From the IMG/VR virus record IMGVR_UViG_3300031830_000005, positions 1-26,613 of that record: 26,613 nt of DNA; one strand, written 5' to 3'. The first letter of the stretch is position 1. Every line of letters begins with the position of its first letter. The DNA is from a virus. Position numbers and translations under genes: made by a program. Shown in pieces: positions 565 to 26,366 of this stretch. Under the pieces are notes generated by a model. It saw nothing but the letters and a program-made list of their open reading frames with translations. It searched no databases and was not told the origin of the DNA.

Positions 565-594
565 TGTCTCTCGTTACGATGGTGAATAATAATA

Positions 595-675: not shown

Positions 676-683
676 CATCGTTT

Positions 684-1229: not shown

Positions 1230-1238
1230 AATTGATTC

Positions 1239-3236: not shown

Positions 3237-3237
3237 C

Positions 3238-4338: not shown

Positions 4339-5093
4339 TGTAATTCATATTCAAATAGTTTAACATATTCGTTAATGTCAAACGCCTCTTGCTTAGTCTC
4401 GTGGACGCTTGCGTCCAAGTCATGCGCTATGCTTGCCAGCGCTGCTTGAAGGCGCTCGACGTGCTGGGACAACGTCTCAATTGTTGATTTGGTTTCGTCG
4501 CTGATGTCTCTGTTCTCCTGCTTTCGAAGTTGTGCCAATGCCTTGATTCTGTTAGTCGTGTACGACGCCTCGAACGTTGCCGCCTCGATTGCAGAGATAG
4601 CATCTCGAATCTGTTCACGAAGTGGCTTGCGCTCTTGAACAGTGATAACTCGTGCTTCGGGATTGTCCGGGAATAAGACGATGGAGCACTCAACAATCTG
4701 CGCTTGCGTGACGATAACATGACCCTCGCTATCCTGCTCGTAACCGTCAACGTAGAAAGCAATGCTCATCGACACTTCAACACCCGCAGCAATGCGCTCT
4801 TCGACGATTTGTCGCAACGACTGCGCTTGAGGATGGGAGTGGAATTGTGCTGTGATGAGCAACCCGTAATCGTCCTCCTGCGCGCTCTCAATGATGCCCA
4901 TCGGCAAGCCATCGCGGTCGTGGTTGTAGAGGAGATAGCCGTTGGTCTTGAGCGTATCGAGTGACTGCGCAAATGCTCCCTTGCGAATGATGATGCCGCT
5001 CTGGCTGACAACGTCGAAGACGGATGCATAGGCCACAATCCGCCCGTTGCTTGCCTCTCTAAGTGCTAATGTGATGAGTTGACGATTGTTCAT
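4335..5093 (-). CDS. Prohead maturation protease (HK97 gp4-like serine protease) with scaffold-like tail
   Basis: The protein has 252 residues from the preferred ATG at 5091-5093, which has an AGAGG six bases upstream and lies 2 bases after the portal stop. An upstream start at 5129 is possible but lies inside the portal gene. The herpes/HK97-type protease core is visible: Gly-Ala-Phe (39-41), Tyr-Asn-His58-Asp, Gly-Leu (77-78), Val-Ser-Met-Ser110-Ile-Ala-Phe, and Val-Glu135-Cys-Ser-Ile-Val. His58 and Ser110 are the likely catalytic pair. After about residue 150 the protein becomes a Gln/Glu/Lys-rich helical region, longer than in HK97 gp4, which may act as additional scaffolding. It is translationally coupled to the capsid gene through ATGA. 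Confidence 0.9.
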   Translation of the reverse strand: MNNRQLITLALREASNGRIVAYASVFDVVSQSGIIIRKGAFAQSLDTLKTNGYLLYNHDRDGLPMGIIESAQEDDYGLLITAQFHSHPQAQSLRQIVEERIAAGVEVSMSIAFYVDGYEQDSEGHVIVTQAQIVECSIVLFPDNPEARVITVQERKPLREQIRDAISAIEAATFEASYTTNRIKALAQLRKQENRDISDETKSTIETLSQHVERLQAALASIAHDLDASVHETKQEAFDINEYVKLFEYELQ

Positions 5094-5095
5094 TG

Positions 5096-6808
5096 TTAAC
5101 CTCTTCGTGGACGTAATACACACCTGCAATTGATACGATTGGCTGGCGAGAGTCGTGCATCACCAGGATGATCGCACAACTCTATGCCACCTTTGCTGTC
5201 TCTAAGTTTGAATTTTCCATCAACTGGCACGACTTGACCGTCCGCCTCTTGGTGATGGTCACGCACCTTGTCATCACGTTGTGAAATCCAATACTTCTTG
5301 ATTGTTCGACGCTTATCCTTGAGCAATTGGTTCATCGTCGCCCACGTCTCTGTCTGCAACCTTGCAACGATTGTCGTCGAGAGTGTCCGTGCCACCAGCG
5401 CAACGTGTGCAAGGTCAATCACTGCATCAGCGCTCAACTTGTCGTAGAGCGTCGCCGATGTGTATTGCATGTCGTGCTCCACAATCTCAGCGATGATGCT
5501 ATCAGCAGAGCTGACCACCTTTGCGACGGGATCTTCGAGGAATTTATCCGTCTTGCTTCGCGCCTCTTGGAATGCGTCACGAACAATCGAGCGCACAGAC
5601 GTTGATGCAGCCTGCTGAATCTTTGCTGCAACGCGTCGCCCTGCGCTACGAAGTATCAACTCACGCTGAACACTGTCCACTGTCTCAAGCTCAGAGACGA
5701 TAGCCGACAGCTCCGCTCTCATCGCTGATGCTATGCGCTGCTCGAGAAGAGAGTAGGAACCTTGCACACGCTGATACCAAAGCTCCTCGCTCTCCTGCTC
5801 CACCATCTGTTGAGTGGTCTCAATGCTGCCTACAGATTCATAACCCAAGCGCTCTCGTGCCTCATCAAGTGTGATAATGCCCTCCTTATAGAGCGCAACT
5901 GTGCTTGATACAGCACTTTCCTGCAGCGCTTGTACACTATCGCGGTCGAGCGCTATCTCCTCCCCAGTAAGTCGCGCAACCGCATCACCCACCGCCTGCC
6001 AAAATGGTACAAGGATGTTATGGACGTAGGCGAGTCTTGCTTGCTCGTAGTTGGCGTAGGTCGAATGGGCAGCACTCGATTGCAGTCCGAGTAATATGGT
6101 GGGGATGCCGTAAATCGCCGCGCAACGCGACTCAACAGCGAGTGCAATTTTCTCAAAATTGAGGGCTTCAAGTAACGGTTCGAACGATTGAACTTCAAAG
6201 CGTGCTGGTAAAATCATCGTGCCGCCCTTGCTTTCAAGATGGGCAGAGAGTAATGAAGAGCGCAGCTGGTTCAACGACTCTTGCGTAAGGACGACAGACG
6301 GATCAGGGATGATTGCACGACGGAAGTACTCATCTGCTGCGATTGACGTCTGCACATAATCACGCACGATTTTGTCGAGCGCCAACTCATCCTTTGCAAG
6401 GTCTCGAGGAGCAACAATTTCATTCAACGCTCGTGCTCCCCACGTCACAACTTCGTAATCGCTTGCTGCGTTGCCGCGGATGAAAACCTTCGGCTCTCCT
6501 CCAATTGCACGCACTGCAAATCCATCTTCTCCACCGTATGGCAACGCCTCAAGGTTACCACTTGCATCAACACGATGGATTGCAACAGCTCCCGTCGTAA
6601 TGTAGTAGCGTGCAATGTCCTTGAGACTGCTGTCAAGCCAATCGTGATTATAACGAGCCTCACTTGCGGATTGAACGAAATACGTCTCGCATACGGTGGC
6701 AAGATTGCTCCCGCTTGCTGCCTTATTCAGCTGCGACACAATCGCCGCCGCGAGCGAGCTACGCTGCTCGATTGGCTTGCGTCTCTTTAACGCCTCGAAT
6801 AATTTCAT
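5096..6808 (-). CDS. Portal protein fused to a MuF-like minor head protein
   Basis: The 570-residue protein has two modules. Residues ~1-330 read as an HK97-type portal: an early Tyr-Asn-His-Asp-Trp-Leu-Asp segment, a central Gly-Ile-Pro-Thr-Ile-Leu-Leu-Gly-Leu turn with Ser-Thr-Tyr-Ala-Asn-Tyr-Glu-Gln-Ala-Arg (clip/stem region), and an Asp-Glu-Ala-Arg-Glu-Arg-Leu-Gly-Tyr helix. After a helical linker (~340-500), the C-terminus has the head-morphogenesis (SPP1 gp7/Mu gpF) pattern: Arg-Asp-His-His-Gln-Glu-Ala-Asp-Gly, Asp-His-Pro-Gly-Asp, and Asn560-Cys-Arg-Cys563. In most phages these are two genes. It overlaps the lysozyme gene by 50 bases. No frameshift is needed, so the fusion looks genuine. 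Confidence 0.85.
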   Translation of the reverse strand: MKLFEALKRRKPIEQRSSLAAAIVSQLNKAASGSNLATVCETYFVQSASEARYNHDWLDSSLKDIARYYITTGAVAIHRVDASGNLEALPYGGEDGFAVRAIGGEPKVFIRGNAASDYEVVTWGARALNEIVAPRDLAKDELALDKIVRDYVQTSIAADEYFRRAIIPDPSVVLTQESLNQLRSSLLSAHLESKGGTMILPARFEVQSFEPLLEALNFEKIALAVESRCAAIYGIPTILLGLQSSAAHSTYANYEQARLAYVHNILVPFWQAVGDAVARLTGEEIALDRDSVQALQESAVSSTVALYKEGIITLDEARERLGYESVGSIETTQQMVEQESEELWYQRVQGSYSLLEQRIASAMRAELSAIVSELETVDSVQRELILRSAGRRVAAKIQQAASTSVRSIVRDAFQEARSKTDKFLEDPVAKVVSSADSIIAEIVEHDMQYTSATLYDKLSADAVIDLAHVALVARTLSTTIVARLQTETWATMNQLLKDKRRTIKKYWISQRDDKVRDHHQEADGQVVPVDGKFKLRDSKGGIELCDHPGDARLSPANRINCRCVLRPRRG

Positions 6809-7304
6809 TGCCTATCGTGTATGCGAGCGTATGGTCTTGTAATAGGTCTGCCAGTCTCTTGTCATAGCGTTTCCACGTGCGCCAATCACCACCGTGCGCA
6901 AGGATTAGCTCAGCACAACGACGACGCAATAGTCCACGAAGTCGCTTGTCGCCTGACTTTGAGTAATGCAGGATCATATACCACTGGTCTTTGTATCCTA
7001 TTTTGAGTGCATTGTAGAGAGTGCCTTTGCGCACGGTCGATAATCCTACATTGTAAGCAAGCGATGATAGCGCCGCAACTTCTGAATCCTTGAGCATGTA
7101 ATGCACAAGTGACCGTTGCAATTTTTGCAACTCTTTCCTCAAAAGCTGCTCTGCTTGCTCTTGAGTGATTGGCGCCGCTGTCTCTTCAGAGCGAGTGCCA
7201 TACCCAATTGTCCAGTAACCTGCTGGACACAAGTATGGCTTAGCTCGGAAGCCCTCGAAGTGCTTGACGAGCTCAACGCACTCATTGAAAATGGACTCAT
7301 CCAT
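6759..7304 (-). CDS. Endolysin, GH24 (T4-type) lysozyme
   Basis: The protein has 181 residues from the ATG at 7302-7304, preferred because it trims the overlap with the holin-like gene to 8 bases. A longer start at 7334 is possible. The catalytic signature is Glu17, eight residues, Cys26, five residues, Thr32, inside Phe-Glu-Gly-Phe...Ala-Gly-Tyr-Trp-Thr-Ile-Gly-Tyr-Gly-Thr. This is the E-x8-(D/C)-x5-T triad of phage lysozymes, here the Cys variant. Later GH24 features include Leu-Ser-Ser-Leu-Ala-Tyr-Asn-Val-Gly and Arg-Arg-Arg-Cys-Ala-Glu. It cleaves peptidoglycan between MurNAc and GlcNAc. No signal-anchor is seen, so export would need the holin. Unusually, it lies between terminase and portal. 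Confidence 0.92.
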   Translation of the reverse strand: MDESIFNECVELVKHFEGFRAKPYLCPAGYWTIGYGTRSEETAAPITQEQAEQLLRKELQKLQRSLVHYMLKDSEVAALSSLAYNVGLSTVRKGTLYNALKIGYKDQWYMILHYSKSGDKRLRGLLRRRCAELILAHGGDWRTWKRYDKRLADLLQDHTLAYTIGNEIIRGVKETQANRAA

Positions 7305-7605
7305 TCTTCCGCTTGTCGCTTGCGAAGAGACCAAGCAAGAACACCGCCACCGCCGTCACTGCATCTAAGATGAACTCTGGGATGTCAGCGATGTTCAGCG
7401 CTCGCAAAATCATTGCAACTCCTGCAAGCACACCAGCGATTGTTGTTTTCCGGTCTCGACTCATGGGATTGGTACGATAGTGGTTGTACATATCTCGGCG
7501 CAGCCATTCTGTTAGTATGCGCCGTTGCTCATCATCTCGTTTTCGATACCAATGAGGCATCGGATTATAAGGTGGCACGGGAGTGATGTTATTCTCACTC
7601 GACAT
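7297..7605 (-). CDS. Holin-like small membrane protein
   Basis: The protein has 102 residues from the ATG at 7603-7605, chosen because GGAGG lies upstream of it; a longer frame to 7650 exists. The N-terminal half is polar and proline/charge-rich. The C-terminal half holds two hydrophobic segments, roughly residues 54-71 (Thr-Ile-Ala-Gly-Val-Leu-Ala-Gly-Val) and 77-96 (Leu-Asp-Ala-Val-Thr-Ala-Val-Ala-Val-Phe-Leu-Leu), and a short Lys/Arg tail. This resembles two-span class II holins or related lysis proteins. It overlaps both the endolysin and the small membrane ORF upstream, forming a lysis cassette. The exact holin family was not recognised. Confidence 0.65.
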   Translation of the reverse strand: MSSENNITPVPPYNPMPHWYRKRDDEQRRILTEWLRRDMYNHYRTNPMSRDRKTTIAGVLAGVAMILRALNIADIPEFILDAVTAVAVFLLGLFASDKRKNG

Positions 7606-7765
7606 AGGTTCGCCCCTCCAACCGTGCAACCCTATCACGTAAGTCACCAAGTAGTTGCGTCAAACTACGCACGTCCGACGCCAACTGTCTGATAGTGTAC
7701 ATTAGCATCGTAATCAATATCGTGGTCGCAATGTTGAGTAAGCGCCAAGCGATTTCGTTGTCCAT
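7595..7765 (-). CDS. Small membrane/coiled-coil protein, 56 residues (lysis cassette)
   Basis: This short gene encodes Met-Asp-Asn-Glu-Ile-Ala-Trp-Arg, then one hydrophobic span (about residues 9-25, Leu-Leu-Asn-Ile-Ala-Thr-Thr-Ile-Leu-Ile-Thr-Met-Leu-Met), then a heptad-like amphipathic helix (Gln-Leu-Ala-Ser-Asp-Val-Arg-Ser-Leu-Thr-Gln-Leu-Leu) to the end. It fills the gap between the large terminase and the holin-like gene and overlaps the latter by 11 bases. An N-terminal anchor with a coiled coil suits an accessory holin, antiholin or i-spanin-like protein, but none is proven. The ribosome site is weak. Confidence 0.6.
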   Translation of the reverse strand: MDNEIAWRLLNIATTILITMLMYTIRQLASDVRSLTQLLGDLRDRVARLEGRTYVE

Positions 7766-7802
7766 CTTGAAGCCACTTTTGTACTCTCGCCAAAATACGA
7801 AA

Positions 7803-8990
7803 TCAAAGAGCCAAGATTTGCAGGTTGTTTCTCAGCGGAACGAGTGCTGCATAGACAGACGCGTCCACACAATCGTCGTGCTGTCCAACTGGGAATGATA
7901 ACAACTCGTCGAAATACCATCGTGGCAATGAATGCGAGAACATCACCTGCCCATGTTCAATGCGTGCAAGTAATGGGAGAAACCGTGTAATCTTATTCTT
8001 ATCGGGCACGTATTCGATGACTGGAAGCTGTGTTGTAGCTATCAATTCTTGCACAACCGCCGCTTGGTACTGCACGCTTTCTATGACGACCAGCGAAGCG
8101 TTCTGCGCAACGTGCTTGATGACTTCGACTACCTCGCGGAAGTTCCAACGCCCGCGTTGCACATCAGCGATGATAACCTTACCGTCCTTATGGATGGCAG
8201 TGACGATTGCAGTGTAATCGGCGAGCACTGACTTGCTGATGGCAAGGTCAACACCTACGACTATCTGCGCATCATCGGTTATAGTTGGCTCCGCGTAGAT
8301 GATGTTCTCCGATTTGACGAGCCCGCCGCTCATCGCGACGAACTCCGCAAGGTATTCCTGCCGAAAAACAAGGTCGGGCAACTCACGTCGTGCTTGCTCG
8401 ATTTCGTCAGGAGAGATGAACGGGTTTGCCGAAGTTGGCATTTGGAACGATGCCCACTCCTTGTCTGCAAGACTACGCATGTAGAGGTCGTAGAAGTAGT
8501 TCCGCCCATTCGGCGTCGAGATTATCATCGCTTCGCCTTTGAAGTCAATCAACGTCTGGCGTATTGATTCTTCCCACGCCTCCCTGAGATAGGTCGCATG
8601 TGCTGCCTCATCAATGACAAGTCGAGCATACTTGCGTCCTCGACCAGCGTCCTTGTCCTCTAACGTCCAGAAGTCTATCACGCCACCAGTGATTAGCTCG
8701 ATACGTCTCTCAGTCCGAGATGAGCGCTGCGTCACTGATTGCAGCGTGCGCACAACGTTGTCCCATACCTCGAAACTCAACTTGTAAGTTGGCGCGAAGT
8801 ATGCAACGGGGAATCCCTCGATTGCTCCGCCATCCATCAACGTGAGCCACTCAACTGCGAGCAGAGTCTTGCCAAATCGTCGTCCTGCCGCTACTACCTT
8901 GAAGCGCGCAGTTGTCTCGAGTACGCGACGCTGACCAGCGTGGAGAGACAGCGGCGAAATGCGGATGACGCATGTCATCGTAATAGCCAT
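7803..8990 (-). CDS. terL: Terminase large subunit (packaging ATPase-nuclease)
   Basis: The 395-residue protein has both TerL domains. ATPase: Walker A Ala-Gly-Arg-Arg-Phe-Gly-Lys41-Thr42, Walker B Leu-Val-Ile-Asp-Glu-Ala (124-129), and coupling motif Ser-Thr-Pro-Asn-Gly (158-162). Nuclease (RNase H-like): Gly-Val-Asp248-Leu-Ala, Val-Ile-Glu304-Ser, and His-Asp-Asp-Cys-Val-Asp376-Ala. It translocates and cuts the DNA at the portal. The protein is on the short side for the family, but no motif is missing. The start is either the ATG at 8990 (used here) or the ATG at 8978, which forms an ATGA overlap with the methyltransferase stop; neither has a clear ribosome site. Confidence 0.95.
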   Translation of the reverse strand: MAITMTCVIRISPLSLHAGQRRVLETTARFKVVAAGRRFGKTLLAVEWLTLMDGGAIEGFPVAYFAPTYKLSFEVWDNVVRTLQSVTQRSSRTERRIELITGGVIDFWTLEDKDAGRGRKYARLVIDEAAHATYLREAWEESIRQTLIDFKGEAMIISTPNGRNYFYDLYMRSLADKEWASFQMPTSANPFISPDEIEQARRELPDLVFRQEYLAEFVAMSGGLVKSENIIYAEPTITDDAQIVVGVDLAISKSVLADYTAIVTAIHKDGKVIIADVQRGRWNFREVVEVIKHVAQNASLVVIESVQYQAAVVQELIATTQLPVIEYVPDKNKITRFLPLLARIEHGQVMFSHSLPRWYFDELLSFPVGQHDDCVDASVYAALVPLRNNLQILAL

Positions 8991-10030
8991 TGATCAATTA
9001 CAACACGCGCTACTTGCTCTGTCATCTTAGGCGGCACACTCATGCCTACTATATACTTGCCAATCCTATCTGTTCTTGCAACATAGTCATCTGGGAATGA
9101 GCTGAGTCGTTTTACTTCTCGAAACGTCAGCTTGCGCATTTCCGACCAATGGCTAAATACATGATGTCTTGCAGTTAATGTTGGTGCTGGCATGTCTTTG
9201 TGCAAGCGAACCCAATTGAAATACGATTTTTTTCCGCGTAACATCATGCATGCAGTATCGTAAGAATCACCAGGTCTTGTCAAGTGATAGAATAGACGAT
9301 CTATATTAGTTGGCGCAGTGTCGGCAAGCTCTGATTCTGTCAGCACTTGCAAGTCACGAGTCGCCTCTTCAGCGCTAATCCATCGATGCTTCGGAGCCAG
9401 CTTCAACGGCGGTACTTCAATATCATTTCGCACAGCAATGAAAAACACGCGCTCACGTTTTTGCGGTACGCCACAATCAGCAGCATTGAGGAAAAATAAT
9501 TGCGGTCTGTAGCCAATCTTTTTGAGCCGAGCCATTATCATTTTGGTATAGCCTTTCGCATTGCCGATCAACATCCCTTTGACGTTTTCGGCAATAGAAA
9601 CCTTAGGTCTTAACTTTTCAACGAGTGCCAAATAATCGAAAAACAGGTCGCTCAACACTTGCTTGGCTTGACCTTCTCGGAAGTATTTTTCCTTGCCCCA
9701 TGTCTTCTCCCTCTTGCCTGCCATGCTGAACGTACTACACGGCGGTGAGCCGTCAAGAATATCAAGATTATAAAGCTCATCAGGCAGATCATTGTTGATC
9801 AAGTCTCTGATAGAGCACAAAAAATAGTGCTTCGAATTTAGATTCTGCTTGTAATGCCACGCCATTTCTGGGTCAATATCATTAGCAGCAATTACATCAC
9901 ATCCAGCACGCTTATAGCCTAAGCTGGAACCGCCACCACCCGCAAATGTGGTCATAACTTTAAGTCCGTTTCGTGGCACAGACTCAAGGTCTTTCAAGCT
10001 CCACGCACACTCAGGTTTTTCCACTGTCAT
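8975..10030 (-). CDS. DNA (cytosine-5) methyltransferase
   Basis: The protein has 351 residues from the ATG at 10028-10030; a GTG 15 bases upstream is an alternative. All main C5-MTase motifs are present: motif I Thr-Phe-Ala-Gly-Gly-Gly-Gly (28-34), motif IV Gly-Ser-Pro-Pro-Cys98 with the catalytic cysteine, motif VI Glu148-Asn-Val, motif VIII Gln190-Lys-Arg-Glu-Arg, and motifs IX/X near Leu-Thr-Phe-Arg-Glu-Val-Lys-Arg-Leu and Val-Gly-Met-Ser-Val-Pro-Pro. The target sequence cannot be predicted. There is no partner restriction gene, so it is an orphan, probably protecting phage DNA from host restriction. The gene looks AT-richer than its neighbours, hinting at later acquisition. It overlaps ParB by 20 bases and TerL by 4-16. 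Confidence 0.94.
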   Translation of the reverse strand: MTVEKPECAWSLKDLESVPRNGLKVMTTFAGGGGSSLGYKRAGCDVIAANDIDPEMAWHYKQNLNSKHYFLCSIRDLINNDLPDELYNLDILDGSPPCSTFSMAGKREKTWGKEKYFREGQAKQVLSDLFFDYLALVEKLRPKVSIAENVKGMLIGNAKGYTKMIMARLKKIGYRPQLFFLNAADCGVPQKRERVFFIAVRNDIEVPPLKLAPKHRWISAEEATRDLQVLTESELADTAPTNIDRLFYHLTRPGDSYDTACMMLRGKKSYFNWVRLHKDMPAPTLTARHHVFSHWSEMRKLTFREVKRLSSFPDDYVARTDRIGKYIVGMSVPPKMTEQVARVVIDQWLLR

Positions 10031-12463: not shown

Positions 12464-13774
12464 CTAACTCGATAACCGTTGCTCGAGCACTTTCAAGAGC
12501 GCATCACAGAATTCCTTGAGCGGGGTCGCTGTGTTATCGGAATCGATTTGGTGCCCTTGCTTGGAGGCGATGAGTTTCTGGCGGACGCACTCGATGTCTT
12601 GCTCTGTCCACTCGCGCCCGAATACTTCGTTCCAGTTTTGCTGGAAGCGTTTAGCGGCGTGTCCGCGGTAACTTTTTCCGGTAATATCGGTAACTTTTGC
12701 GGTATCCGTTGGTAACTTTCCGAACCGCTGCTTGTAGAGCTCAGCAATAGAGGTTTGCGACGAGTCAATCACGACGTACTTCGGAGGTGCTTTCGGTTGC
12801 TCTTGCTTGTCGCCTTGCAACGCAATAACGACCTCGCTTAGTATGTCTCTCATGTTACGCGATTCTGATTTTTTCGGTGACGAGTATGTAGGCTTTGGCG
12901 GGTCTTTCTTCTTTGGCTCTCGCTGATCTGACGGTAGATAGAACCATGCTTGCTTCATGGTTCGCTTGCGCATGATGAGGTTGACAGCGTAAGTGATCCG
13001 CCATATTAGTTGTCGCAGCGTTTTTACGACGCCTTGCTTGATGTAATTGTTCACAACGCGGACGATGTCGAGAGCTTGATAGATAGTAGGTTTGACTTGC
13101 TTGTAATACCACGTGAGAATTGAGCAGTAGGTTTTCGTGAACTCTTGCCCTCGCTCTTGATGCCATCCACGTATATGTCGCATGATATCACGCCAGAATG
13201 GGTAATGCTCATCTACCTTGAGCGGTTCTTTGAGGAGAGAAGGCTTGTGTTTGCAATGCTCGTAGACGTCTGCGCACTCTCGTTTTCGTTTAGCAGGTGG
13301 CTTGGAAGTGGTAGGAGCTGGAGTTACGGTCTTGATATCTGATTGATGGGATGAAAAATTGGAGCGAAGCTTCACTTCTTTAGTCTTGGAATAACTAATA
13401 TTATTCTTATGCGGTGCAACTTCGTACGCTGAGCGGTTCGTTGCGTGTGTGGGGAGAATGTGGTTGATGATTGACGGCGAGTGGAATGTGTAAAGCGTCT
13501 TGCGTGATTGTCGTCCTGGTAGTTTCGTGAGACACTTGAGGCGGAGAAGATGATTAACGAGTTTACGTGCATAGCTGTAAGATGTTCCCCTGCCAACAAG
13601 CGCTTGGACGTCGTATGTGGAGAATGATTCCTGCTCGAAGAACGCCTCGACTATCATCAAGATATCCTTTCGCTGCCTTGGCTTGTTGGCGAGGTAGTGG
13701 CAGTCGCGCAGGAACGTGATCAGCTTCTTGCGATACTCGCGGCGCTTATCTGGTTGTTGAGCGGATATTACCAT
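12464..13774 (-). CDS. Unknown large basic protein, candidate replication initiator/regulator
   Basis: This 436-residue, Lys/Arg-rich protein is not recognised. The first ~100 residues look like a winged-helix pair (Phe-Ser-Thr-Tyr-Asp-Val-Gln-Ala-Leu-Val-Gly-Arg-Gly-Thr-Ser-Tyr-Ser-Tyr-Ala-Arg-Lys, then a wing with Leu-Thr-Lys-Leu-Pro-Gly-Arg). A low-complexity basic linker, a helical middle (residues ~200-290) and a C-terminal helical domain follow. It is the first gene leftward of the divergent control region, has its own promoter and operator-like palindrome, and is the only candidate for a replication protein in the genome. A DnaD/Rep-like or repressor role is possible. The ATG lies 4 bases from the promoter -7 box. 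Confidence 0.55.
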   Translation of the reverse strand: MVISAQQPDKRREYRKKLITFLRDCHYLANKPRQRKDILMIVEAFFEQESFSTYDVQALVGRGTSYSYARKLVNHLLRLKCLTKLPGRQSRKTLYTFHSPSIINHILPTHATNRSAYEVAPHKNNISYSKTKEVKLRSNFSSHQSDIKTVTPAPTTSKPPAKRKRECADVYEHCKHKPSLLKEPLKVDEHYPFWRDIMRHIRGWHQERGQEFTKTYCSILTWYYKQVKPTIYQALDIVRVVNNYIKQGVVKTLRQLIWRITYAVNLIMRKRTMKQAWFYLPSDQREPKKKDPPKPTYSSPKKSESRNMRDILSEVVIALQGDKQEQPKAPPKYVVIDSSQTSIAELYKQRFGKLPTDTAKVTDITGKSYRGHAAKRFQQNWNEVFGREWTEQDIECVRQKLIASKQGHQIDSDNTATPLKEFCDALLKVLEQRLSS

Positions 13775-13778
13775 CGTG

Positions 13779-13808
13779 CAAATATACGCATTACACTTGT
13801 AATTACAA
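13779..13808 (-). promoter_or_regulatory. Leftward FCB-type promoter for the 436-residue gene
   Basis: On the minus strand, TTG (13806-13808), a 19-base spacer and TATATTTG (13779-13786) fit the Bacteroidota -33/-7 consensus (TTTG; TAnnTTTG). The ATG follows just four bases after the -7 box, so transcription should start at or next to the start codon, giving a leaderless or nearly leaderless mRNA. Confidence 0.65.
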
Positions 13809-13809
13809 G
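13796..13809. promoter_or_regulatory. 14-bp perfect palindrome over the -33 box (operator candidate)
   Basis: CTTGTAATTACAAG is a perfect palindrome overlapping the -33 TTG of the leftward promoter. A dimeric repressor bound here would block it. The candidate binders are the 436-residue protein (autoregulation) or the small HTH protein at 17709-17954. Confidence 0.5.
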
Positions 13810-13901
13810 CGCACCATTGCCAGAGTAATGAAATGGCAAAATCCTATCAAACCCCGTGCCAAACTACCCTCGAAAAAATAAAAAAAATTTTTCATAAAGT
13901 G

Positions 13902-13932
13902 TTGCAAAATCAAAATTAATTGCTTATTTTTG
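13902..13932 (+). promoter_or_regulatory. Early promoter P1 (FCB-type)
   Basis: TTG at 13902-13904, a 20-base spacer, and TATTTTTG at 13925-13932 match the TAnnTTTG/-33 architecture. It has an A7T5 tract upstream. Transcripts would carry a ~205-nt leader that runs through P2. Confidence 0.65.
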
Positions 13933-13982
13933 CGTCGTAACAATTAGACTGTTAATTGTTCTTTCGCAACCGGAAACCTCAA

Positions 13983-14016
13983 GATTGACGCGGTAATAGC
14001 AATCACCGTGACAATC
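13983..14016 (+). other. Imperfect hairpin in the P1 leader
   Basis: GATTG (13983-13987) pairs with CAATC (14012-14016), and CGCGGT (13989-13994) pairs with ACCGTG (14005-14010) with one G-U wobble. An A-A mismatch lies between them and the loop has 10 bases. No U tract follows. It could be a leader structure or an origin-associated inverted repeat. Confidence 0.4.
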
Positions 14017-14053
14017 ATCAAGAGGGAAAAAGAAAAAAATTTTTCAAAACCTC

Positions 14054-14084
14054 TTGACAAACGAAAATAAATTACTTATTTTTG
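14054..14084 (+). promoter_or_regulatory. Early promoter P2 (FCB-type)
   Basis: TTG at 14054-14056 (within TTGACA), a 20-base spacer, and TATTTTTG at 14077-14084. Initiation near 14090 would give a ~55-nt leader containing the small hairpin and the 20-nt repeat before the first early gene. Confidence 0.7.
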
Positions 14085-14097
14085 CGTCGTAAGAATT

Positions 14098-14112
14098 GCC
14101 ACACAATGTGGC
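14098..14112 (+). other. Leader hairpin of the early mRNA
   Basis: GCCACA-CAA-TGTGGC forms a perfect 6-bp stem with a 3-base loop a few bases after the expected P2 start. Its 3' arm includes the first three bases of the 20-nt repeat, so pairing of that repeat with an antisense RNA would open this hairpin. Confidence 0.55.
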
Positions 14113-14129
14113 ATGTATGTATAACCAAT
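14110..14129 (+). repeat. 20-nt repeat GGCATGTATGTATAACCAAT, copy in early leader
   Basis: This is identical to 633-652 and 25760-25779. Here it is in the sense orientation of the early transcript, whereas the late transcripts carry the complement. It ends 15 bases before the first early start codon. Confidence 0.85.
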
Positions 14130-14144: not shown

Positions 14145-14540
14145 ATGCTGTACAGCACATATATGGATCGCAATCTTAGCTGGCTCCGTTGGCAAGCCCG
14201 CAAGGTAGCAGTACTCGGCAATGAGCTCGGCGTTGAAAACAAGACCGAAGCCGAGATCGCCAAGGAGACTGATGATCTTGTCGTAGAAATGCTTGTAAGA
14301 GCTATCCGTAAGTATGACCCCGACTTCTCGGTGGAACCGTACCGATATTACAACTTGCCCGAGACACTTAATGAGTACTTGTGGCATCAGATCCGCAAAC
14401 ACATCTGTATGCAAACTGGTATGTCTGATGTAGACGATGATGCGCGCAAACTTCTCGACAAGGAGCTCGAGCAGGTCTCTCTCTATATTAAGTATGCCTA
14501 CGAACGTCGTCATTACAATCTTACCGCTTACGATGCATAA
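14145..14540 (+). CDS. Early protein of unknown function
   Basis: This 131-residue protein was not recognised. It is helical and charged, with an early Leu-Ser-Trp-Leu-Arg-Trp-Gln-Ala-Arg-Lys segment, an acidic middle (Lys-Thr-Glu-Ala-Glu-Ile-Ala-Lys-Glu-Thr-Asp-Asp), and a Tyr-rich C-terminus. No HTH, metal site or membrane span is seen. As the first gene behind two strong promoters, and separated from the rest by a GC-rich hairpin, it is probably the most abundant early product. Possible roles are host takeover or regulation, but this is only a guess from position. The start is fixed by the adjacent initiation box, although the frame is open further upstream. Confidence 0.8.
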   Translation: MLYSTYMDRNLSWLRWQARKVAVLGNELGVENKTEAEIAKETDDLVVEMLVRAIRKYDPDFSVEPYRYYNLPETLNEYLWHQIRKHICMQTGMSDVDDDARKLLDKELEQVSLYIKYAYERRHYNLTAYDA

Positions 14541-14551
14541 TTTGTAAGTAG

Positions 14552-14580
14552 GAGTGGGGCGCAGCACTCTGCGCCCCCTC
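14552..14580 (+). terminator. GC-rich hairpin after the first early gene (terminator/attenuator)
   Basis: GGGGCGCAG (14556-14564) pairs perfectly with CTGCGCCCC (14569-14577) around a CACT tetraloop, and GAG/CTC extend the stem past a bulged T. The following bases are CTCTGAATAACC-like with no U run, so it may be a partial attenuator, a 3' stabiliser or an RNase stop rather than a classical terminator. Confidence 0.6.
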
Positions 14581-14625
14581 TGAATAACCTTAATATCTAT
14601 CTATTATTGTCCCACTAATCATATA

Positions 14626-14634
14626 GGTGTAGTC
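14626..14634 (+). promoter_or_regulatory. Early initiation box GGTGTAGTC before ATG 14635
   Basis: Identical to the box of the first early gene, and preceded by a similar ATATA-rich stretch, although the genes are unrelated. Confidence 0.7.
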
Positions 14635-15024
14635 ATGTCGCAATATGTTAGTCTCCGCCAATTGCATCCCATTGCTTGCCAAGTCGTTGACCAGTGGCGC
14701 GAGGATAATGCTGTGATTGCAATCATGGTCGTGTCGCCTGATCATGCGGATTACAACGCACAGCCTGGTGATTACATATCCACCGATGTTGATGGCGCTG
14801 TCGCAATAGATTGCTATGCACTAGCCGCCAAGCAGTGTGACAGAGTACCTGATCATGTGCACTATCCGGGCGATAGAGTACTCGTTATTACGGGTCGTGA
14901 TATACTGCCGCTCGACTATGTCGACTATCATCGCTACTGCGCGGCAATTGTGCGTGATGCGTATGTGTTGGGTGTTATTGACCTATCGGTTACTCAATCC
15001 ACCACTCAGGAGGTCCAGCCATGA
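14635..15024 (+). CDS. Early protein of unknown function, acidic
   Basis: This 129-residue protein was not recognised. It is acidic, with many Asp and Tyr residues, and short hydrophobic strands (Val-Ile-Ala-Ile-Met-Val-Val; Val-Leu-Val-Ile-Thr-Gly) suggesting a small beta-rich fold. The Asp/Tyr-rich, negatively charged surface could suit a DNA-mimic or inhibitor, but this is speculation. It follows the hairpin at 14552-14580 and overlaps the next gene by 4 bases (ATGA). Confidence 0.75.
   Translation: MSQYVSLRQLHPIACQVVDQWREDNAVIAIMVVSPDHADYNAQPGDYISTDVDGAVAIDCYALAAKQCDRVPDHVHYPGDRVLVITGRDILPLDYVDYHRYCAAIVRDAYVLGVIDLSVTQSTTQEVQP
15012..15020 (+). promoter_or_regulatory. Early initiation box GGTCCAGCC before ATG 15021
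   Basis: A variant of the box with C at positions 4, 5 and 8, preceded by AGGA to give a full AGGAGGT Shine-Dalgarno. It lies inside the end of the preceding gene. Confidence 0.65.
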
Positions 15025-15221
15025 TCGACTATAAGACCGAAGTCTATCGTATAATACAACTCTTGGATGGAGGAGAGTTGTATAATTGTGGCGATCTTGT
15101 GATATATGGATGGCCAATAAGTGGCAGAAGTTATCCACCAACCGAAGATGCAATCGACTTACTCAAAGCGATGGAAAAAGAAATTGAGCGTCTTAAAGCT
15201 GCGCTATCCCAGTTGACTTAA
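15021..15221 (+). CDS. Small early protein of unknown function
   Basis: This 66-residue protein was not recognised. The N-terminal half has a possible small beta hairpin (Leu-Tyr-Asn-Cys-Gly-Asp-Leu-Val-Ile-Tyr-Gly-Trp). The C-terminal half is an amphipathic helix (Ala-Ile-Asp-Leu-Leu-Lys-Ala-Met-Glu-Lys-Glu-Ile-Glu-Arg-Leu-Lys), probably a coiled coil. It overlaps the previous gene by 4 bases and ends 24 bases before the annealing protein gene, so it is part of the recombination operon. Confidence 0.7.
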   Translation: MIDYKTEVYRIIQLLDGGELYNCGDLVIYGWPISGRSYPPTEDAIDLLKAMEKEIERLKAALSQLT

Positions 15222-15236
15222 TTGTTTCACTTTTTT

Positions 15237-15245
15237 GGTGTAGCC
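15237..15245 (+). promoter_or_regulatory. Early initiation box GGTGTAGCC before ATG 15246
   Basis: Fourth copy of the block. It decides the start of the annealing protein at 15246 rather than an in-frame TTG 24 bases upstream. Confidence 0.65.
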
Positions 15246-16064
15246 ATGAAACCTGTTCTGTATCCCTCTAATCCCCAGCCGCTGGATGATGCGGCACTTG
15301 AGAAAGTGATTGTGCAGGGTCGCCTTGAGCACCTAACGCCTAAGGAGCGCCTGCTCTACTACAAGACGTTGTGTGAGTCACTGGGACTCAATCCGCTCAC
15401 CCGTCCTTTTGAGTACATCACACTCTCGGGACGACTAACCTTGTACGCGCGTCGTGACGCAACAGACCAACTTCGGCGGCTGCATCAGGTGTCAATTACA
15501 ATTGTATCTCGTGAACGCCTTGACGATATCTACGTCGTCACGGCGCGAGCAACATTACCCGACGGCCGTTGTGACGAGTCAACAGGAGCAGTCTCAATTG
15601 CAGGGCTGCAGGGCGAGCAACTGGCGAATGCGATAATGAAGGCGGAGACGAAAGCCAAGCGGCGTGTTACTCTATCCATTGTCGGTCTTGGCATCCTCGA
15701 CGAATCCGAGCTTGATACTGTCCCACAAGCTCAACGAGTCACAATCGACGATGCAGCAGCAGAGGTTGCCGAGCCTCAACTGTCGTCACTACCAAGCAAC
15801 GACACAACAGTTGTGGAGACAGCTGAGCCGCCCGCTGAACTAACCTTCGGCGATGCATATGAGGAGGAGATAGACAAAGTCATGCTTGACGAGTGTCAAC
15901 AGATTTACAATCAATTCTCCGACGTACGCAAGGTCAAATTCACGAACTGGCTCCACAAGACGTATGGGAAAGCAGAACTATTCGAACTCAACAACGACCA
16001 ACTCACAGAAGTCTATCGCACGCTCTTGAAAACGACGAGAACAACTAAGGAGGTGCAGTCATGA
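15246..16064 (+). CDS. Putative single-strand annealing recombinase (RecT/Bet-like)
   Basis: The 272-residue protein contains Leu-Thr-Pro-Lys-Glu-Arg...Tyr-Tyr-Lys-Thr-Leu-Cys-Glu-Ser-Leu-Gly-Leu-Asn-Pro-Leu-Thr-Arg-Pro-Phe (residues 30-54), like the 'C..LGLNP.T' motif of Bet/RecT proteins. Further on are Tyr-Ala-Arg-Arg-Asp-Ala-Thr-Asp-Gln-Leu-Arg-Arg and Met-Lys-Ala-Glu-Thr-Lys-Ala-Lys-Arg-Arg-Val-Thr-Leu-Ser (131-144), the helix that ends many annealing-protein cores. After ~160 comes an acidic linker and a small helical C-terminal domain, possibly for partner binding. It is followed directly by an exonuclease gene (4-base overlap), the usual two-component recombination pair. The family assignment is by motif and context. 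Confidence 0.65.
   Translation: MKPVLYPSNPQPLDDAALEKVIVQGRLEHLTPKERLLYYKTLCESLGLNPLTRPFEYITLSGRLTLYARRDATDQLRRLHQVSITIVSRERLDDIYVVTARATLPDGRCDESTGAVSIAGLQGEQLANAIMKAETKAKRRVTLSIVGLGILDESELDTVPQAQRVTIDDAAAEVAEPQLSSLPSNDTTVVETAEPPAELTFGDAYEEEIDKVMLDECQQIYNQFSDVRKVKFTNWLHKTYGKAELFELNNDQLTEVYRTLLKTTRTTKEVQS
16052..16060 (+). promoter_or_regulatory. Early initiation box GGTGCAGTC before ATG 16061
   Basis: Fifth copy, preceded by AGGA to form AGGAGGT. It lies inside the last codons of the annealing protein gene. Confidence 0.65.
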
Positions 16065-16969
16065 ATGAGAGTAAGCAACTCTTGCAACGCTTGACTGCTC
16101 TTGCAAAGCAGCATAACCTGCCCAAGATAGGTTGCTCTGTTGTGTCGTCGGCAATCGGTGAGTCGCAGTTCGAGGATGCAACACCTCTCAATGCCTACCG
16201 TCGCATTGTCGAAGGCGTCAAGCCTGAGCCTAATCGTGCAATGATTCTTGGGCGCTACTTCGAGGATGGGGTTCGAAACATGTTGGCAGAGGAATACGGC
16301 ATCATGTGCACGCAAGCCCAAGAGTACGTCTGCGCTCCTCCGTTGCATGGCTATATCGACGGGCGAATCAACGAGTCAACAATCCTCGAAATCAAGACGA
16401 CCGCTCGAGGATACGAGAAAATCCCACACGAATACATCATCCAAGCCAACCTCTACATGCTGCTGGCTAACGCGCCGCTCTGTACCTACGCCGTCTTTAC
16501 GTTTTCGAACCAAGAACTCGACATTGAAACCATCGCATTTGATGATGAGCTGACGGCGGATGTGTTGGCACGGTTACTACAATTCTACGAGCAACACGTT
16601 ATCCCGCAAGTCCCGCCTCCTGCAAACAACCCGGAGGAATATCGCGAGTCAATCAAGATTGAAGAGGGCAAGGTAGTGGAGCTCGATTGCGAGGAACTGC
16701 TGCGCAAAATCCATCGCTTGAAGATTGAGCGTGACCAATACGACCATCTTCTCGACGAGGCGAAATTCGAACTTGAACTCATGATGGGTGGCGCAGAGAA
16801 GGCAACGTACAAAGGCAAGAGAGTGGCGTCTTACTCCGTCTCAAGTTATAAGACAGTTGACACCGACAAGCTAAAGGCGAAGTACCCCGATGTCTACCAG
16901 GAATGCTTGAAAGTCAGCGGTCCCACGCTCCGTCTATCCATCAATTACAACCTCTTGGAGAAGCTATGA
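16061..16969 (+). CDS. Phage recombination exonuclease (YqaJ/lambda Exo-type PD-(D/E)XK)
   Basis: The 302-residue protein has the nuclease core in order: Gly-Arg-Tyr-Phe-Glu68 (early acidic residue), Gly-Tyr-Ile-Asp100-Gly-Arg, Leu-Glu110-Ile-Lys112-Thr-Thr, and Ile-Ile-Gln128-Ala-Asn-Leu-Tyr (Q-x3-Y motif), giving the D-x9-E-x-K pattern of YqaJ/lambda-exonuclease enzymes. It would resect double-stranded DNA ends and hand single strands to the annealing protein encoded just upstream. The C-terminal third is a coiled-coil-like helix pair and a small beta module (Thr-Leu-Arg-Leu-Ser-Ile). It is coupled to both neighbours by 4-base overlaps. Confidence 0.87.
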   Translation: MNESKQLLQRLTALAKQHNLPKIGCSVVSSAIGESQFEDATPLNAYRRIVEGVKPEPNRAMILGRYFEDGVRNMLAEEYGIMCTQAQEYVCAPPLHGYIDGRINESTILEIKTTARGYEKIPHEYIIQANLYMLLANAPLCTYAVFTFSNQELDIETIAFDDELTADVLARLLQFYEQHVIPQVPPPANNPEEYRESIKIEEGKVVELDCEELLRKIHRLKIERDQYDHLLDEAKFELELMMGGAEKATYKGKRVASYSVSSYKTVDTDKLKAKYPDVYQECLKVSGPTLRLSINYNLLEKL

Positions 16970-17331
16970 GCAGATATACTACCCTCGAGCAAGCAATCTC
17001 GCTGTTCGACACGGCAAAACGACTGTACTTGCGTAATTACTTACGTGATGTCGACAACCGTCGTGGCGTGCTAACGTATGCAGTGGAGTCGGTGTCACAC
17101 AACCGCCGCTATCACTACGTGCAAGTCAAGTTGTCGGACAGCCCACTTGAGACGCTCTACTCGTGTGACTGTGTGCTCTACCAGCGCGGAGCACCAACGT
17201 GCATACACATCGCCTACATCATCTACCATCGCCATTCCCAGATACGTGACTACGTCGAGCGACGTCACGCATTGCAAGAGCTACTCCCTGCCTTGAGACG
17301 GTACAACGATGGAGATAACTGCTATGCCTAA
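16966..17331 (+). CDS. SWIM zinc-finger protein in the recombination operon
   Basis: The protein has 121 residues from the ATG overlapping the exonuclease stop (ATGA, with GGAG upstream). It contains Cys67-Asp-Cys69, nine residues, then Cys79-Ile-His81, which is the CxCx(n)CxH SWIM signature. It is preceded by beta strands (Tyr-His-Tyr-Val-Gln-Val-Lys-Leu) and followed by a helix (Ala-Tyr-Ile-Ile-Tyr-His), as in real SWIM domains. These zinc modules bind DNA or proteins, and in eukaryotic and archaeal recombination factors they partner with Rad51-like proteins. Here it probably assists the annealing protein or nuclease. The rest is Arg/Tyr-rich and otherwise unrecognised. Confidence 0.75.
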   Translation: MSRYTTLEQAISLFDTAKRLYLRNYLRDVDNRRGVLTYAVESVSHNRRYHYVQVKLSDSPLETLYSCDCVLYQRGAPTCIHIAYIIYHRHSQIRDYVERRHALQELLPALRRYNDGDNCYA

Positions 17332-17728
17332 TCGTCGTTATAGGTCTGGCGTCAATCTTGAGCGAGAGATACGCAACATATTAGAGAAGCGTTACAACAT
17401 CCCTTGTCTTCGAACGGCAGGCAGCAAGAGTGATTTCGACCTTGTCGCTCTTGGACGACGCACAGTTCTAATCCAAGTCAAGTACACGGCGAGAAAGAAT
17501 CTCGAACCGACTCGTACGCTACTCCAAAAGATGGAAAGCTACGTCACAAATGAGAGGTGGGCGGTTATCATCGTTGTGCAGCGGCAGACGCGCAAGACAC
17601 TTCTCGGTTGCTTGAGATATGATACACTTATCAACGATGTTCGATATACGAAAAGGATAGACAGATTCACTGAATCAATGCTTACGTTGAATCAACTATG
17701 TTCTGGTTATGAAGTTGACAATCCATGA
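17324..17728 (+). CDS. Holliday-junction-resolvase-like PD-(D/E)XK nuclease
   Basis: The protein has 134 residues from the ATG at 17324, which has GGAG nine bases upstream; an ATG at 17309 lacks one. It follows the archaeal Hjc plan: Asn-Leu-Glu13-Arg-Glu, Arg-Thr-Ala-Gly-Ser34-Lys-Ser-Asp-Phe-Asp39-Leu-Val-Ala, and Ile-Gln51-Val-Lys53-Tyr. Oddly, the usual Glu of the E-x-K motif is Gln51. Such Q-x-K variants occur among related nucleases, so activity is plausible but not certain. It would resolve recombination or replication branches before packaging. It overlaps the SWIM gene by 8 bases and the HTH gene by 20. Confidence 0.75.
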   Translation: MPNRRYRSGVNLEREIRNILEKRYNIPCLRTAGSKSDFDLVALGRRTVLIQVKYTARKNLEPTRTLLQKMESYVTNERWAVIIVVQRQTRKTLLGCLRYDTLINDVRYTKRIDRFTESMLTLNQLCSGYEVDNP

Positions 17729-17954
17729 ATTCGCACAACTGATGCGTCTCACACGTGCAGGCGCTTACAATTACATCTACGACCTTGAGATTACTCCCGT
17801 CGAGCCAGGACGTGGACGCAAGCCGATGGTGATTGAACTTGCAGACATAGCCGAACGTCTTGGTTGCACGGAGGTGGAACTGCTCACTTACATTCGTGTT
17901 CGCAATGCTCTCAAGGATGCATTCAAGAAGCGTCGTGGCGAGAAGCGCTCATAA
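17709..17954 (+). CDS. Small HTH DNA-binding protein
   Basis: The 81-residue protein has a helix-turn-helix: Ile-His-Glu-Phe-Ala-Gln-Leu-Met-Arg-Leu-Thr-Arg-Ala-Gly-Ala-Tyr-Asn-Tyr-Ile-Tyr (residues 5-24), then a basic wing (Pro-Gly-Arg-Gly-Arg-Lys-Pro) and a second helical pair ending in Lys-Lys-Arg-Arg-Gly-Glu-Lys-Arg-Ser. This resembles excisionase/MerR-like or HTH-17 proteins. No integrase is present, so a transcription regulator is more likely than an excisionase; candidate targets are the palindrome at 13796-13809 or the duplicated promoters. It is the last early gene and its stop codon overlaps that of the convergent metallophosphoesterase. Confidence 0.7.
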   Translation: MKLTIHEFAQLMRLTRAGAYNYIYDLEITPVEPGRGRKPMVIELADIAERLGCTEVELLTYIRVRNALKDAFKKRRGEKRS

Positions 17955-21087: not shown

Positions 21088-21546
21088 CTACCACTGCGTG
21101 AAATAGAGTTTCACACGCAAGTACTTCACGCCCGTTTGGTGTTTATGCTCGTGCTCAAGCGCCGCGATTCTGACTGCCCACCACTTTGAGGGGTCGCGTG
21201 AGTTCCACCACGCTGGATAGTTACCGTTCCGAACGTAGTACCAATAATAGGAAGTGAGGTAATCCATCAACGCTTGCCTCGCAGAATCATCGTTAGGGAA
21301 GTGATACGGCAGCACATGGAGCGTCATCTCATCAACGTATTCGCCAGCTGCGATTGCAATTCCATCATCAATAATGTTGGCTTCGGTGTTGAGCGTGCGC
21401 TGAGGATTGGCGGCATAGACGAGCATGTCTTGCTGATACGCAGCACTGGAGCCGATGAGCGTTTGAATCGTCGAATTATCGACAGCTCCAGCCGTGTCAG
21501 TCTGTATGTATGCATTTGTTGCGACGAGCTTCAAAGTCCAACTCAT
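21088..21546 (-). CDS. Putative distal tail protein
   Basis: The protein has 152 residues from the ATG overlapping the tape measure stop (ATGA at 21543-21546); a longer frame to 21594 is unlikely because it lies within the tape measure gene. It begins Ser-Trp-Thr-Leu-Lys-Leu-Val-Ala-Thr and has beta strands, with a Trp/Tyr-rich second half (Tyr-Tyr-Trp-Tyr-Tyr-Val-Arg; Trp-Trp-Asn-Ser). Being first after the tape measure, it fits the distal tail (Dit-like) slot that joins tube and tip. No motif confirms this. Confidence 0.55.
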   Translation of the reverse strand: MSWTLKLVATNAYIQTDTAGAVDNSTIQTLIGSSAAYQQDMLVYAANPQRTLNTEANIIDDGIAIAAGEYVDEMTLHVLPYHFPNDDSARQALMDYLTSYYWYYVRNGNYPAWWNSRDPSKWWAVRIAALEHEHKHQTGVKYLRVKLYFTQW

Positions 21547-24500
21547 GACGCCATCCTCGCACGTAGTGCAACCGACCGTTGCGCAGCAATCCAATCGCCT
21601 TTTGCGCGCACTTGCAGAGCGCCTGTGAGCTCAACTCTTACTTGCTGTACAGTGGGAACCATCACGACCGATGGAGAGTATGTTCCCTTATTCATTGCAT
21701 CAAGGATTTCACGGTAGCGCTCAGCATACGGGTAACGTATGACATATTCACGATGGTGCACAACACCTGCAACGTCTTGTGTGCTGCCATAACCCGTAAA
21801 CCCACCAGACGCAAACCCACGTTGTAATGCTGCACGAGCAGCCGCGAACAAGGTCTTGAGCAAGGCAACGAGAACACCAGCAGTCCCGAAGCCAATGATA
21901 CCTTTGGTGCCAATCTCAGCGCCAGTTGCTCCAGCAATCCACGCAGGGAGCATCGCTTCGAGCAAGTCAATCAATGCGCTCGCAATCGCTCGATTGAATG
22001 ACTTCATGCCCTCTTGAGCGTCGCGCCCGACCTCTACAAATGCAGCACCGAACGCGTTAGTCAGTGATGTCAAAAACGAATCACTCGTGCGTAGCATCTC
22101 TGTGTTGAGCTGTTGCCAGCGCTGCGCTTCTGTGTCCATCAACTGCTGGCGCAGTGCCGCGTAACGCTCACGGATGGCGTAAATAGTCTCTTCCCCAGCT
22201 TGTACTAATTGCGCTTTGCGCAACCATTCTTGCTCTTCCTCATCGAGCCGTCGCAGTCGCTCCTGTCGCTCACGCTCTGCCTCATCACTGATTGCAGCAA
22301 GCTGCACATCTCGCCTTAGCTTGGCACCTTCTGCTGTCTTCTCAACGAGCTGCTTGTTGAACTTGTCGTAGCTCGATAGCACCTTTTCGAGCGCCGACTT
22401 GACAACGTTAGCCTCATCACTTCCTACTCTTAGCGATTGCAATCGTGCTCGAAGGTCTTCGATTGTGCGCTCATACTTGCTTCGCAGCGCGTCAATGGCA
22501 GCGTTATCAAGTGCTACCTCGATAGTCACGTCTGATAGTTTGGAGAGCTCCTCTGATACTGCATCAAGCTCACGCTTTGCACTTTCTACGTTTGCGCGAA
22601 TCTCTAACTCTTGCGATTGTTGACGCAGCTTGATTACTTCGTTGAGGAGAGATAACGCTTCACTCTTTGCCTTCGATAGTGCTTCTTGGTACTTCTTTTT
22701 AGCTTCCGCCGCCTTACCAGCATTATCCGCCGTCTCATCTTCAGCATCAGCGACCGCCTGCATCTCCTGTTGTGCCTTGACGACGATGGGATTCGCCTTC
22801 GCAATCTCCTCTGCCCATTGCTTAGCCGCATCAACACTAAGTTGTAGAGGGTCGGCGAGCATCTTACGAATAGCACTTTCAATCCCCGCCGTCCGTGCGA
22901 ATGAGAGGAGTCGCTGCTGCAGTAGGTCAAGCTGAATACGTGCTGCCTCTAACTGTGTCTGCGTGTCAGGAGAGATTATGCCACGATTGAGTGATGATTG
23001 CTTAGCGGCAAGGTCAACGTATTGCTTGACGGCATCAACGTATTGTTTTGCTCTTTGCGCTACCGCATCTAACTGTGCAGCAAGTGCTGCATAATCAGTA
23101 CTTGCTTTCTTGACTTCACTTGCTGCTGTCTTCGTCGCTTCGGCAACCTGCTGTTGTGACTGTGCAACTTGCTCGCTCTTCTTCGCGGTGTCGTCTTGCC
23201 CACCGATTAGTTTTTTGAGCCAATTGTAGAGCGACACGAATGAGTCAATCACCGACTGCACGTAGTTTTTGAGCGCCAAGAAAATCCCCTGCAGTACCGT
23301 TGATTTGTTGACCAGTTCAACGATGAAATTGACGACCGCTTTAATTGCATTCCACAACATCGTGTAGTAAGAGATTACCAATCGTATAGCCCCACCAACG
23401 ATTAGCCCGACAAACCTTGCGACCGCCGATACAATCGAAGACAGAACGGAGAACACGGTCTTGAGCACATCTGCTAATGTGCCGAAAATGTTAACGCCTC
23501 CACCGAGACCACTAAAAGCATCTTGCAACCCTTGAATCAGCCCCCTCAACGTACCGATAATAAGACTGTTGAGCCCCGCGAACCACGCAATGAGCGGTTG
23601 TAGGATTGTCACAATCGCTGATGCGACATCTTGCACAATTTTCACGATGCCATTCAAGTCTGTCCCTAAACCACCGAATGCGCTTGTAATCATATTCGCA
23701 ACCCTCAACACCTGACTCCCCAGCGCTTCCAATACAAGACCAGCTGCTGTCTTGAGCCGTTCGAGTAACTCTCCCATCGTTGCCATGCGTGTCTCTGCCT
23801 GCTTCAGCGCTGCACCTTGTGCACCAGACTCGATACGCTTCTGGAGCTCTCGGATTTTGTCGAGGTTATTCAGCAGACCGCCTGCTGCTGCAAGATTCTC
23901 TTTCCCGAACACACGCACGAGTAGAGCACTACGCTCTGCGTCAGAACCGAGCTTCTGAAGTCCATCTTGCAATAGCTGCAATGTGTCAGCGATACCTTTC
24001 TCGCTTAGCGATTTCCCGAGCTCTGCAGAGGATAGACCAATTGAGTTGAGTGCTTTCTCGGCTGCACTACTTGTCTTGACAAGTGACGTGAGTACGTTGC
24101 GAAGTCCAACACCTGCCTCTGCTCCACTTTTACCTGCAAACGCAAGCCCCTCAAGCGCTGCCGCAACTTGTGTCGAGGATAGGTTGAGCTGCTTAGCAGT
24201 TGATCCCACTTGGAGATAAGACTCTGCAAGCGCTGAGGTTTCCGCTGCCCCTTCCTGTGCTGCCTTTGCCAACACATCCATCAACTCTCCACTTGCACGC
24301 AATACTTCGTTGGCGTCGCTTGTGTTGACGCCTACTTGCAACATGACGTCCATCAATTGTTGACCAGCCGTTGCTGCATCTTGCCCCGTTGCTTTCGCGA
24401 AGATGTTGACGTTCTCGATGAAGCCCGCAAACTGTTCTTGGCTCTTTGCAAGGTCGGGACCCAATTTCGAGAGCGCTATTGACATCAAGTCAAGCTGCGA

Positions 24501-24947: not shown

Positions 24948-24949
24948 CG

Positions 24950-25243
24950 CTACAAGTACTTTTCGTATGGGTTACGGGTCGGCTTTCGCCACGTTCGCGC
25001 CTTCACTACAAGCAGTAGGTCAATGCAATGCTTGTAGTCGTAATCGAGCACAGTCTCGAAATCAATGTGCAATGCCTCTGCTATCATCGCTGCCAATGCA
25101 TAACATCGTAGATGCTCTGGCAGTAAGTGCATCGCGCTTGTGTCCTCAAGCTCATCACCGTAGTCGTCAACATACTTGAGTGTTGCAAGGGGTTCTGTCC
25201 GATTTATGTGCAATTCGTAAGCATAAGCATCAGCGCAAGTATC
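24950..25243 (-). CDS. Tail assembly chaperone T extension (frameshift product G-T, allele B)
   Basis: This 97-residue extension is in the +1 frame relative to chaperone G and is open from a stop at 25259-25261 through the slip site to 24950, two bases before the tape measure. An independent start would have to be the TTG at 25211-25213 (87 residues), with no ribosome site. With a +1 (or -2) shift at T6-CGA, the G-T fusion would have 246 residues. The sequence contains Val-Asp-Asp-Tyr-Gly-Asp-Glu-Leu-Glu-Asp and an Asp-Tyr-Asp-Tyr-Lys-His helix. In lambda and many relatives the fused form binds the tape measure through T and the tube subunit by G. Confidence 0.68.
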   Translation of the reverse strand, partial: DTCADAYAYELHINRTEPLATLKYVDDYGDELEDTSAMHLLPEHLRCYALAAMIAEALHIDFETVLDYDYKHCIDLLLVVKARTWRKPTRNPYEKYL

Positions 25244-25691: not shown

Positions 25692-25721
25692 TGTCTATTG
25701 TTGTGATTGTGAATAATAATA

Positions 25722-25803
25722 GTGCGCCGAGCTCTGCAGTGAAGTGGAAAGAGCTGAAAGGCATGTATGTATAACCAATAGCGGGCTACATTACTCGGCG
25801 CAC
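25722..25803 (-). promoter_or_regulatory. Structured RNA element between major tail protein and chaperone G (allele B)
   Basis: The 10-bp outer arms (25722-25731, 25794-25803) are unchanged from allele A. The inner stem is 25735-25739 with 25786-25790; its single change (G to A on the plus strand) leaves a U-G wobble in minus-strand RNA but a C-A mismatch in plus-strand RNA. Several loop bases differ, but the 20-nt motif is intact. Confidence 0.6.
25760..25779 (+). repeat. 20-nt repeat GGCATGTATGTATAACCAAT, allele B late copy
   Basis: Exact match to 633-652 and 14110-14129, with different bases immediately on both sides. Confidence 0.85.
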
Positions 25804-25811
25804 CATCATCG

Positions 25812-26357: not shown

Positions 26358-26366
26358 ATCTTGATC

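Follow-up and report, generated by a model that had tools for sequence, protein, structure and literature searches.

Why should a small uncultured phage carry the same 20 nucleotides, letter for letter, both ahead of its first early gene and within its tail gene region? In the window, i.e. the whole 26,613-base virus record that was analysed, GGCATGTATGTATAACCAAT is found exactly at positions 14110-14129, 633-652 and 25760-25779, always on the plus strand. No further match occurs in the window at up to three mismatches, and dinucleotide shuffles yielded none at all. The preliminary description had counted three sites and proposed that they could serve as an antisense switch from early to late gene expression. 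All three exact matches were recovered, but they represent only two real sites. The ends of the window, 1-1486 and 25128-26613, overlap over about 1.49 kb with 84-95% identity at an offset of 25,127-25,128, and a related contig (L001) crosses the joint unbroken, aligning to 21491-26613 and then to 1-9885. Hence, we are dealing with a circular or circularly permuted genome of about 25.1 kb (unique part 25,127 bp), in which 633-652 and 25760-25779 represent alleles of a single tail locus contributed by two strains. L001 itself appears mosaic, combining both end haplotypes across the tail gap and the tail gene. Different flanking bases, claimed for all three sites, are therefore true of tail versus leader only, as the flanks of the two tail copies match apart from some substitutions.

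Whether two copies of a 20-mer can give rise to complementary RNAs depends on the direction in which each is read. All minus-strand genes form a single leftward unit that runs from 13774 to 1, across the joint and on to 17949, and that includes genes for a terminase small subunit, a ParB-like protein, the terminase, portal, capsid, connectors and a tape measure protein, the latter borne out at 21543-24947. The tail copy lies in this unit, in the gap between a putative major tail protein gene (684-1229, minus strand) and a putative tail assembly chaperone gene (103-564, minus strand), which lie upstream and downstream on the late strand, respectively. Family searches gave no match for the former, which sits after the connectors and before the tape measure gene, and no convincing match for the latter. 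The preliminary description had placed a hairpin between these two genes; its intergenic location stands, while the gene identities rest on position. A glycosyltransferase-like gene (1239-1934) separates the putative major tail protein gene from the connectors. The plus-strand unit, 14145-17954, comprises among others a RecE-like exonuclease, a resolvase-like protein and a small helix-turn-helix (HTH) protein at its end (17709-17954, HTH_Mga, 2.1e-05). The protein encoded at 15222-16064 has several hundred viral relatives and is probably a recombinase, judging from its place before the exonuclease. The first gene of this unit, 14145-14540 in the open reading frame list, encodes 131 amino acids without a Pfam family and with a weak PHROG match that is itself annotated without function. 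It is followed by a strong hairpin, GGGGCGCAG-CACT-CTGCGCCCC (14541-14634), that lacks a T-run. The early and late units meet tail to tail with a 6-base overlap at 17949-17954, and late read-through past this point would yield antisense RNA to the whole early operon.

Upstream of the first early gene, two promoters on the plus strand are predicted from consensus matches: P2 at 14054-14084, TTGACA-N17-TATTTTTG of the TAnnTTTG type, and P1 at 13902-13932, within a tandem duplicate of the P2 region (13845-13945 and 13997-14097, 74% identity). The first copy of this duplication is followed by an inverted repeat, AACAATTA-N6-TAATTGTT. From P2, transcription would start near 14088. The resulting leader would contain, in order, a seven-pair hairpin at 14097-14113 (TGCCACA-CAA-TGTGGCA), the remainder of the 20-mer, an AGGTG motif and the ATG at 14145. 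A leader hairpin at 14098-14112 had been described before and is indeed present in the fold; its 3′ arm contains the first four bases of the 20-mer. The 20-mer ends 15 nt ahead of the start codon and 5 nt upstream of the likely Shine-Dalgarno sequence. An in-frame ATG at 14106 would turn this copy into coding sequence. The start at 14145 is favored because of the AGGTG motif and a block, ATAGGTGTAGTCATG, that the first early gene shares with the second (at 14623). Promoters of the form TTG-N20-TAnnTTTG correspond to the consensus of Bacteroidota, and the host may thus belong to this phylum.

For the leftward unit, a promoter on the minus strand, TTG-N19-TATATTTG, is predicted by consensus at 13779-13808, adjoining the start codon at 13774, so that the leftward message may be nearly leaderless. 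A perfect 14-bp palindrome of operator-like appearance, CTTGTAATTACAAG (13796-13809), overlaps this promoter. A role of the 20-mer as a phage-specific promoter or another leftward DNA element would agree with the fact that ATTGGTTATACATACATGCC has the same orientation relative to the single leftward unit at both places. We regard such a role as very improbable: a consensus leftward promoter already adjoins 13774, the sequences after the two copies have nothing in common, and a message starting from the leader copy would carry over 300 nt of leader that traverses two promoters of opposite direction. The separate promoter near 13774, which makes the leader copy dispensable as late promoter, also speaks for an antisense function. 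As judged from gene order and orientation together with the promoter consensus, the two sites would be transcribed from opposite strands, and the predicted RNAs from the two loci are complementary over an extended stretch of 20/20 bases, in full agreement with the perfect complementarity claimed between early leader and late-strand loop.

The late copy is embedded in a conspicuous structure. As initially described, its complement is carried by a stem-loop of the late strand (595-675, identified by folding and an exact-arm scan), with ten exact pairs between the arms 595-604 and 666-675 (GTGCGCCGAG/CTCGGCGCAC), about 15 pairs in the fold and a 61-nt loop. The 20-mer complement occupies positions 633-652 (minus strand) of the loop in the left haplotype and 25760-25779 (minus strand) in the allelic right haplotype, which was assigned by the end overlap. 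The loop holds a further inner stem of five pairs. Fold z-scores are -3.2, -4.3 and -4.4 in three haplotypes, and of the six hairpins whose exact arms measure 10 nt or more, this one has the highest G+C content in its arms. A function as standard intrinsic terminator was rejected, as the hairpin lacks a U-tract and is followed by TATTATTATTCAC; a terminator scan, which allows loops of 3-8 nt only, likewise found none here. A short open reading frame starting from an ATG in the loop was also dismissed as a gene, since the changes between haplotypes are in our reading mostly amino acid-altering.

Could the match simply be a chance event or a functionless recent copy of a short word? The 20-mer is the sole exact repeat of at least 17 nt, in either orientation, in the unique 25,127 bp. 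The chance expectation for 20-nt pairs is about 2e-4 for direct repeats and about 4e-4 for both orientations, in line with the earlier verdict of a very improbable coincidence. Moreover, both sites lie in the 2.5% of the genome that is intergenic; for any given repeat, the additional probability that chance puts both copies there is about 6e-4. Dispersed exact repeats of 18-59 nt occur in 12 of 79 phage stretches (this one counted), and both copies are noncoding in only two of the 78 others, each with several-member repeat families; this base rate is rough, as the gene caller took the leader copy as coding from the ATG at 14106.

Variation between strains provides additional information. Relatives were sought with the 20-mer, the putative major tail protein, the first early gene, the terminase, the capsid, the chaperone, the gene at 12464-13774 and the recombination protein as queries. 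Only the contigs L001 and L002 reach the 20-mer sites, while the closest terminase relatives (L010-L013) stop short of them, and none of the loci found is a relative that has diverged at either site. This leaves three haplotypes at the tail locus and two at the leader, with the 20-mer invariant in all of them and, consequently, no compensatory change between leader and loop in these haplotypes. In no other fetched locus was the 20-mer detected at up to four mismatches. The search of genome contigs returned only Tepidimonas terminase relatives, phage records contained no match to the early region, the tail protein or the first early protein, and Rfam gave no match in the window at the gathering score. 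Structure models of tail and early proteins were of too poor quality for use. At the tail locus, variable columns number 0/22 in the arms, 0/20 in the 20-mer and 8/42 in the remaining loop, a contrast (P = 0.035) that is modest, post hoc and drawn from three haplotypes. The only variation in the inner stem converts a C-G into a U-G and thus keeps the pair. The leader region of the window differs from that of L002 in 4/372 columns, none of them near the 20-mer, and conservation between two such near-identical haplotypes is uninformative on constraint. This, and the small number of haplotypes known, leaves room for a functionless copy. In view of the chance expectation, the intergenic position of both sites, the rarity of such repeats in other phages and the unchanged tail copy amid varying neighbors, we nevertheless consider this explanation improbable.

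The reading that we prefer, albeit tentatively and at somewhat less than even odds, is that the loop of the late tail mRNA represses the early genes by pairing in trans with their leader. Leftward late transcription would produce a tail mRNA that forms, between the putative tail and chaperone genes, a strong hairpin, which could display ATTGGTTATACATACATGCC in its open loop or be excised as a small RNA. As late mRNA accumulates, the loop would pair with the complementary 20 nt of the early leader, with the 17 nt beyond the leader hairpin as starting point, before the 3′ arm of this hairpin is displaced. The resulting 20-bp duplex, located 15 nt from the start codon and 5 nt from the likely Shine-Dalgarno sequence, would block ribosome entry, perhaps with additional cleavage by RNase III. 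We infer that both sites are transcribed, that the RNAs pair in cells, that the late RNA acts on the early one and that this has an effect. That the abundant tail mRNA itself is the trans antisense timer shutting the early operon through these 20 perfect base pairs is a slightly more doubtful proposition.

Calculated energies are compatible with such pairing. The duplex amounts to -30.5 kcal/mol at 37 °C, against opening costs of 10.6-11.4 kcal/mol for the leader and 2.9-4.5 kcal/mol for the loop. This leaves net values of -15 to -17 kcal/mol at the same temperature, which shrink to about -10 to -12 kcal/mol at 60 °C. The late side is open, ranking in the top 3% (left haplotype) or top 10% (right haplotype) of random late 20-mers. 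In contrast, the leader side is partly closed by the small hairpin: the full 20-mer is more closed than 86% of early 20-mers, while its 17 nt beyond the hairpin, at the 21st percentile, are fairly accessible. Nested co-folding does not pick the leader-loop pairing, but as the program cannot represent pairing of a closed loop with a second strand, this neither supports nor refutes the interaction. Complementarity and energies would be identical if the early leader RNA acted on the late hairpin instead, for example by changing how it is processed or the read-through to the chaperone and tape measure genes. However, the complementary stretch belongs to the loop and is positioned about 69 nt upstream of the chaperone start, so that pairing alone would open neither the stem nor the start. 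In addition, the late mRNA should presumably outnumber the early leader when both are present. This reverse direction thus seems quite unlikely, hardly more so than a functionless copy is.

The main competitor of the antisense reading is that a regulator, from phage or host, recognizes the 20-mer as double-stranded DNA, which we judge possible but rather unlikely. Bound downstream of P2, such a protein would block early transcription, and late transcription would be affected when it binds in the tail gap. Operators shared between distant promoters are frequent in phages, the HTH protein that closes the early operon is a candidate regulator, and the exact identity of both sites equally suits a binding site. 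On the other hand, the 20-mer is non-palindromic and present in two copies only, unlike the operators of dimeric regulators, and no weaker copies at up to five mismatches exist anywhere in the window. The tail gap has no leftward TAnnTTTG promoter, and the more operator-like palindrome CTTGTAATTACAAG sits on the leftward promoter instead. A DNA site would also leave the conserved hairpin around the late 20-mer unexplained. This hairpin, its conservation and the gap-free identity of two non-palindromic copies favor RNA over a DNA site, although they separate the two readings only weakly. Of the antisense switch as originally proposed, the anatomy fits: the two opposite transcripts are complementary, the loop is open and borne by a conserved stem, and the target adjoins the ribosome binding site. 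The argument from three sites is now one from two.

How would such a mechanism compare with known systems? Switching from early to late expression in phages is usually explained by proteins. The P4 CI and P1 c4 RNAs resemble the present case in that a short complementary stretch acts on an early leader, but they are immunity RNAs from the same early transcript and employ other mechanisms. The phage antisense RNAs sar, OOP and aQ are encoded in cis and target genes of the lysis-lysogeny decision. As proposed here, P22 sar and λ OOP lower the expression of a phage gene; pairing of sar blocks translation initiation, while that of OOP leads to decay by RNase III (PMC12197685). Unlike sar and OOP, which derive from the opposite strand of the same DNA, the two loci considered here are 11.6-13.5 kb apart, and the candidate antisense RNA is part of a late mRNA. 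Pairing in trans is also known from the phage small RNAs VpdS (VP882) and PreS (λ), which function in lytic growth and depend on Hfq, with PreS targeting a host gene (PMC12197685). The present candidate differs from these two by its 20 perfect pairs, by a target in the phage itself and by the lack of a U-tract. Searches of an openly licensed literature library returned no report of a late mRNA loop acting on a phage's own early leader.

The 20-bp pair offers an easily mutated test case. Should the 20-mer turn out to be a DNA site instead, it would provide a lead to the regulator of the phage itself. If the antisense reading is true, the mRNA of structural genes would itself serve as an antisense switch, which would make early gene shut-off directly dependent on how much late mRNA is present.
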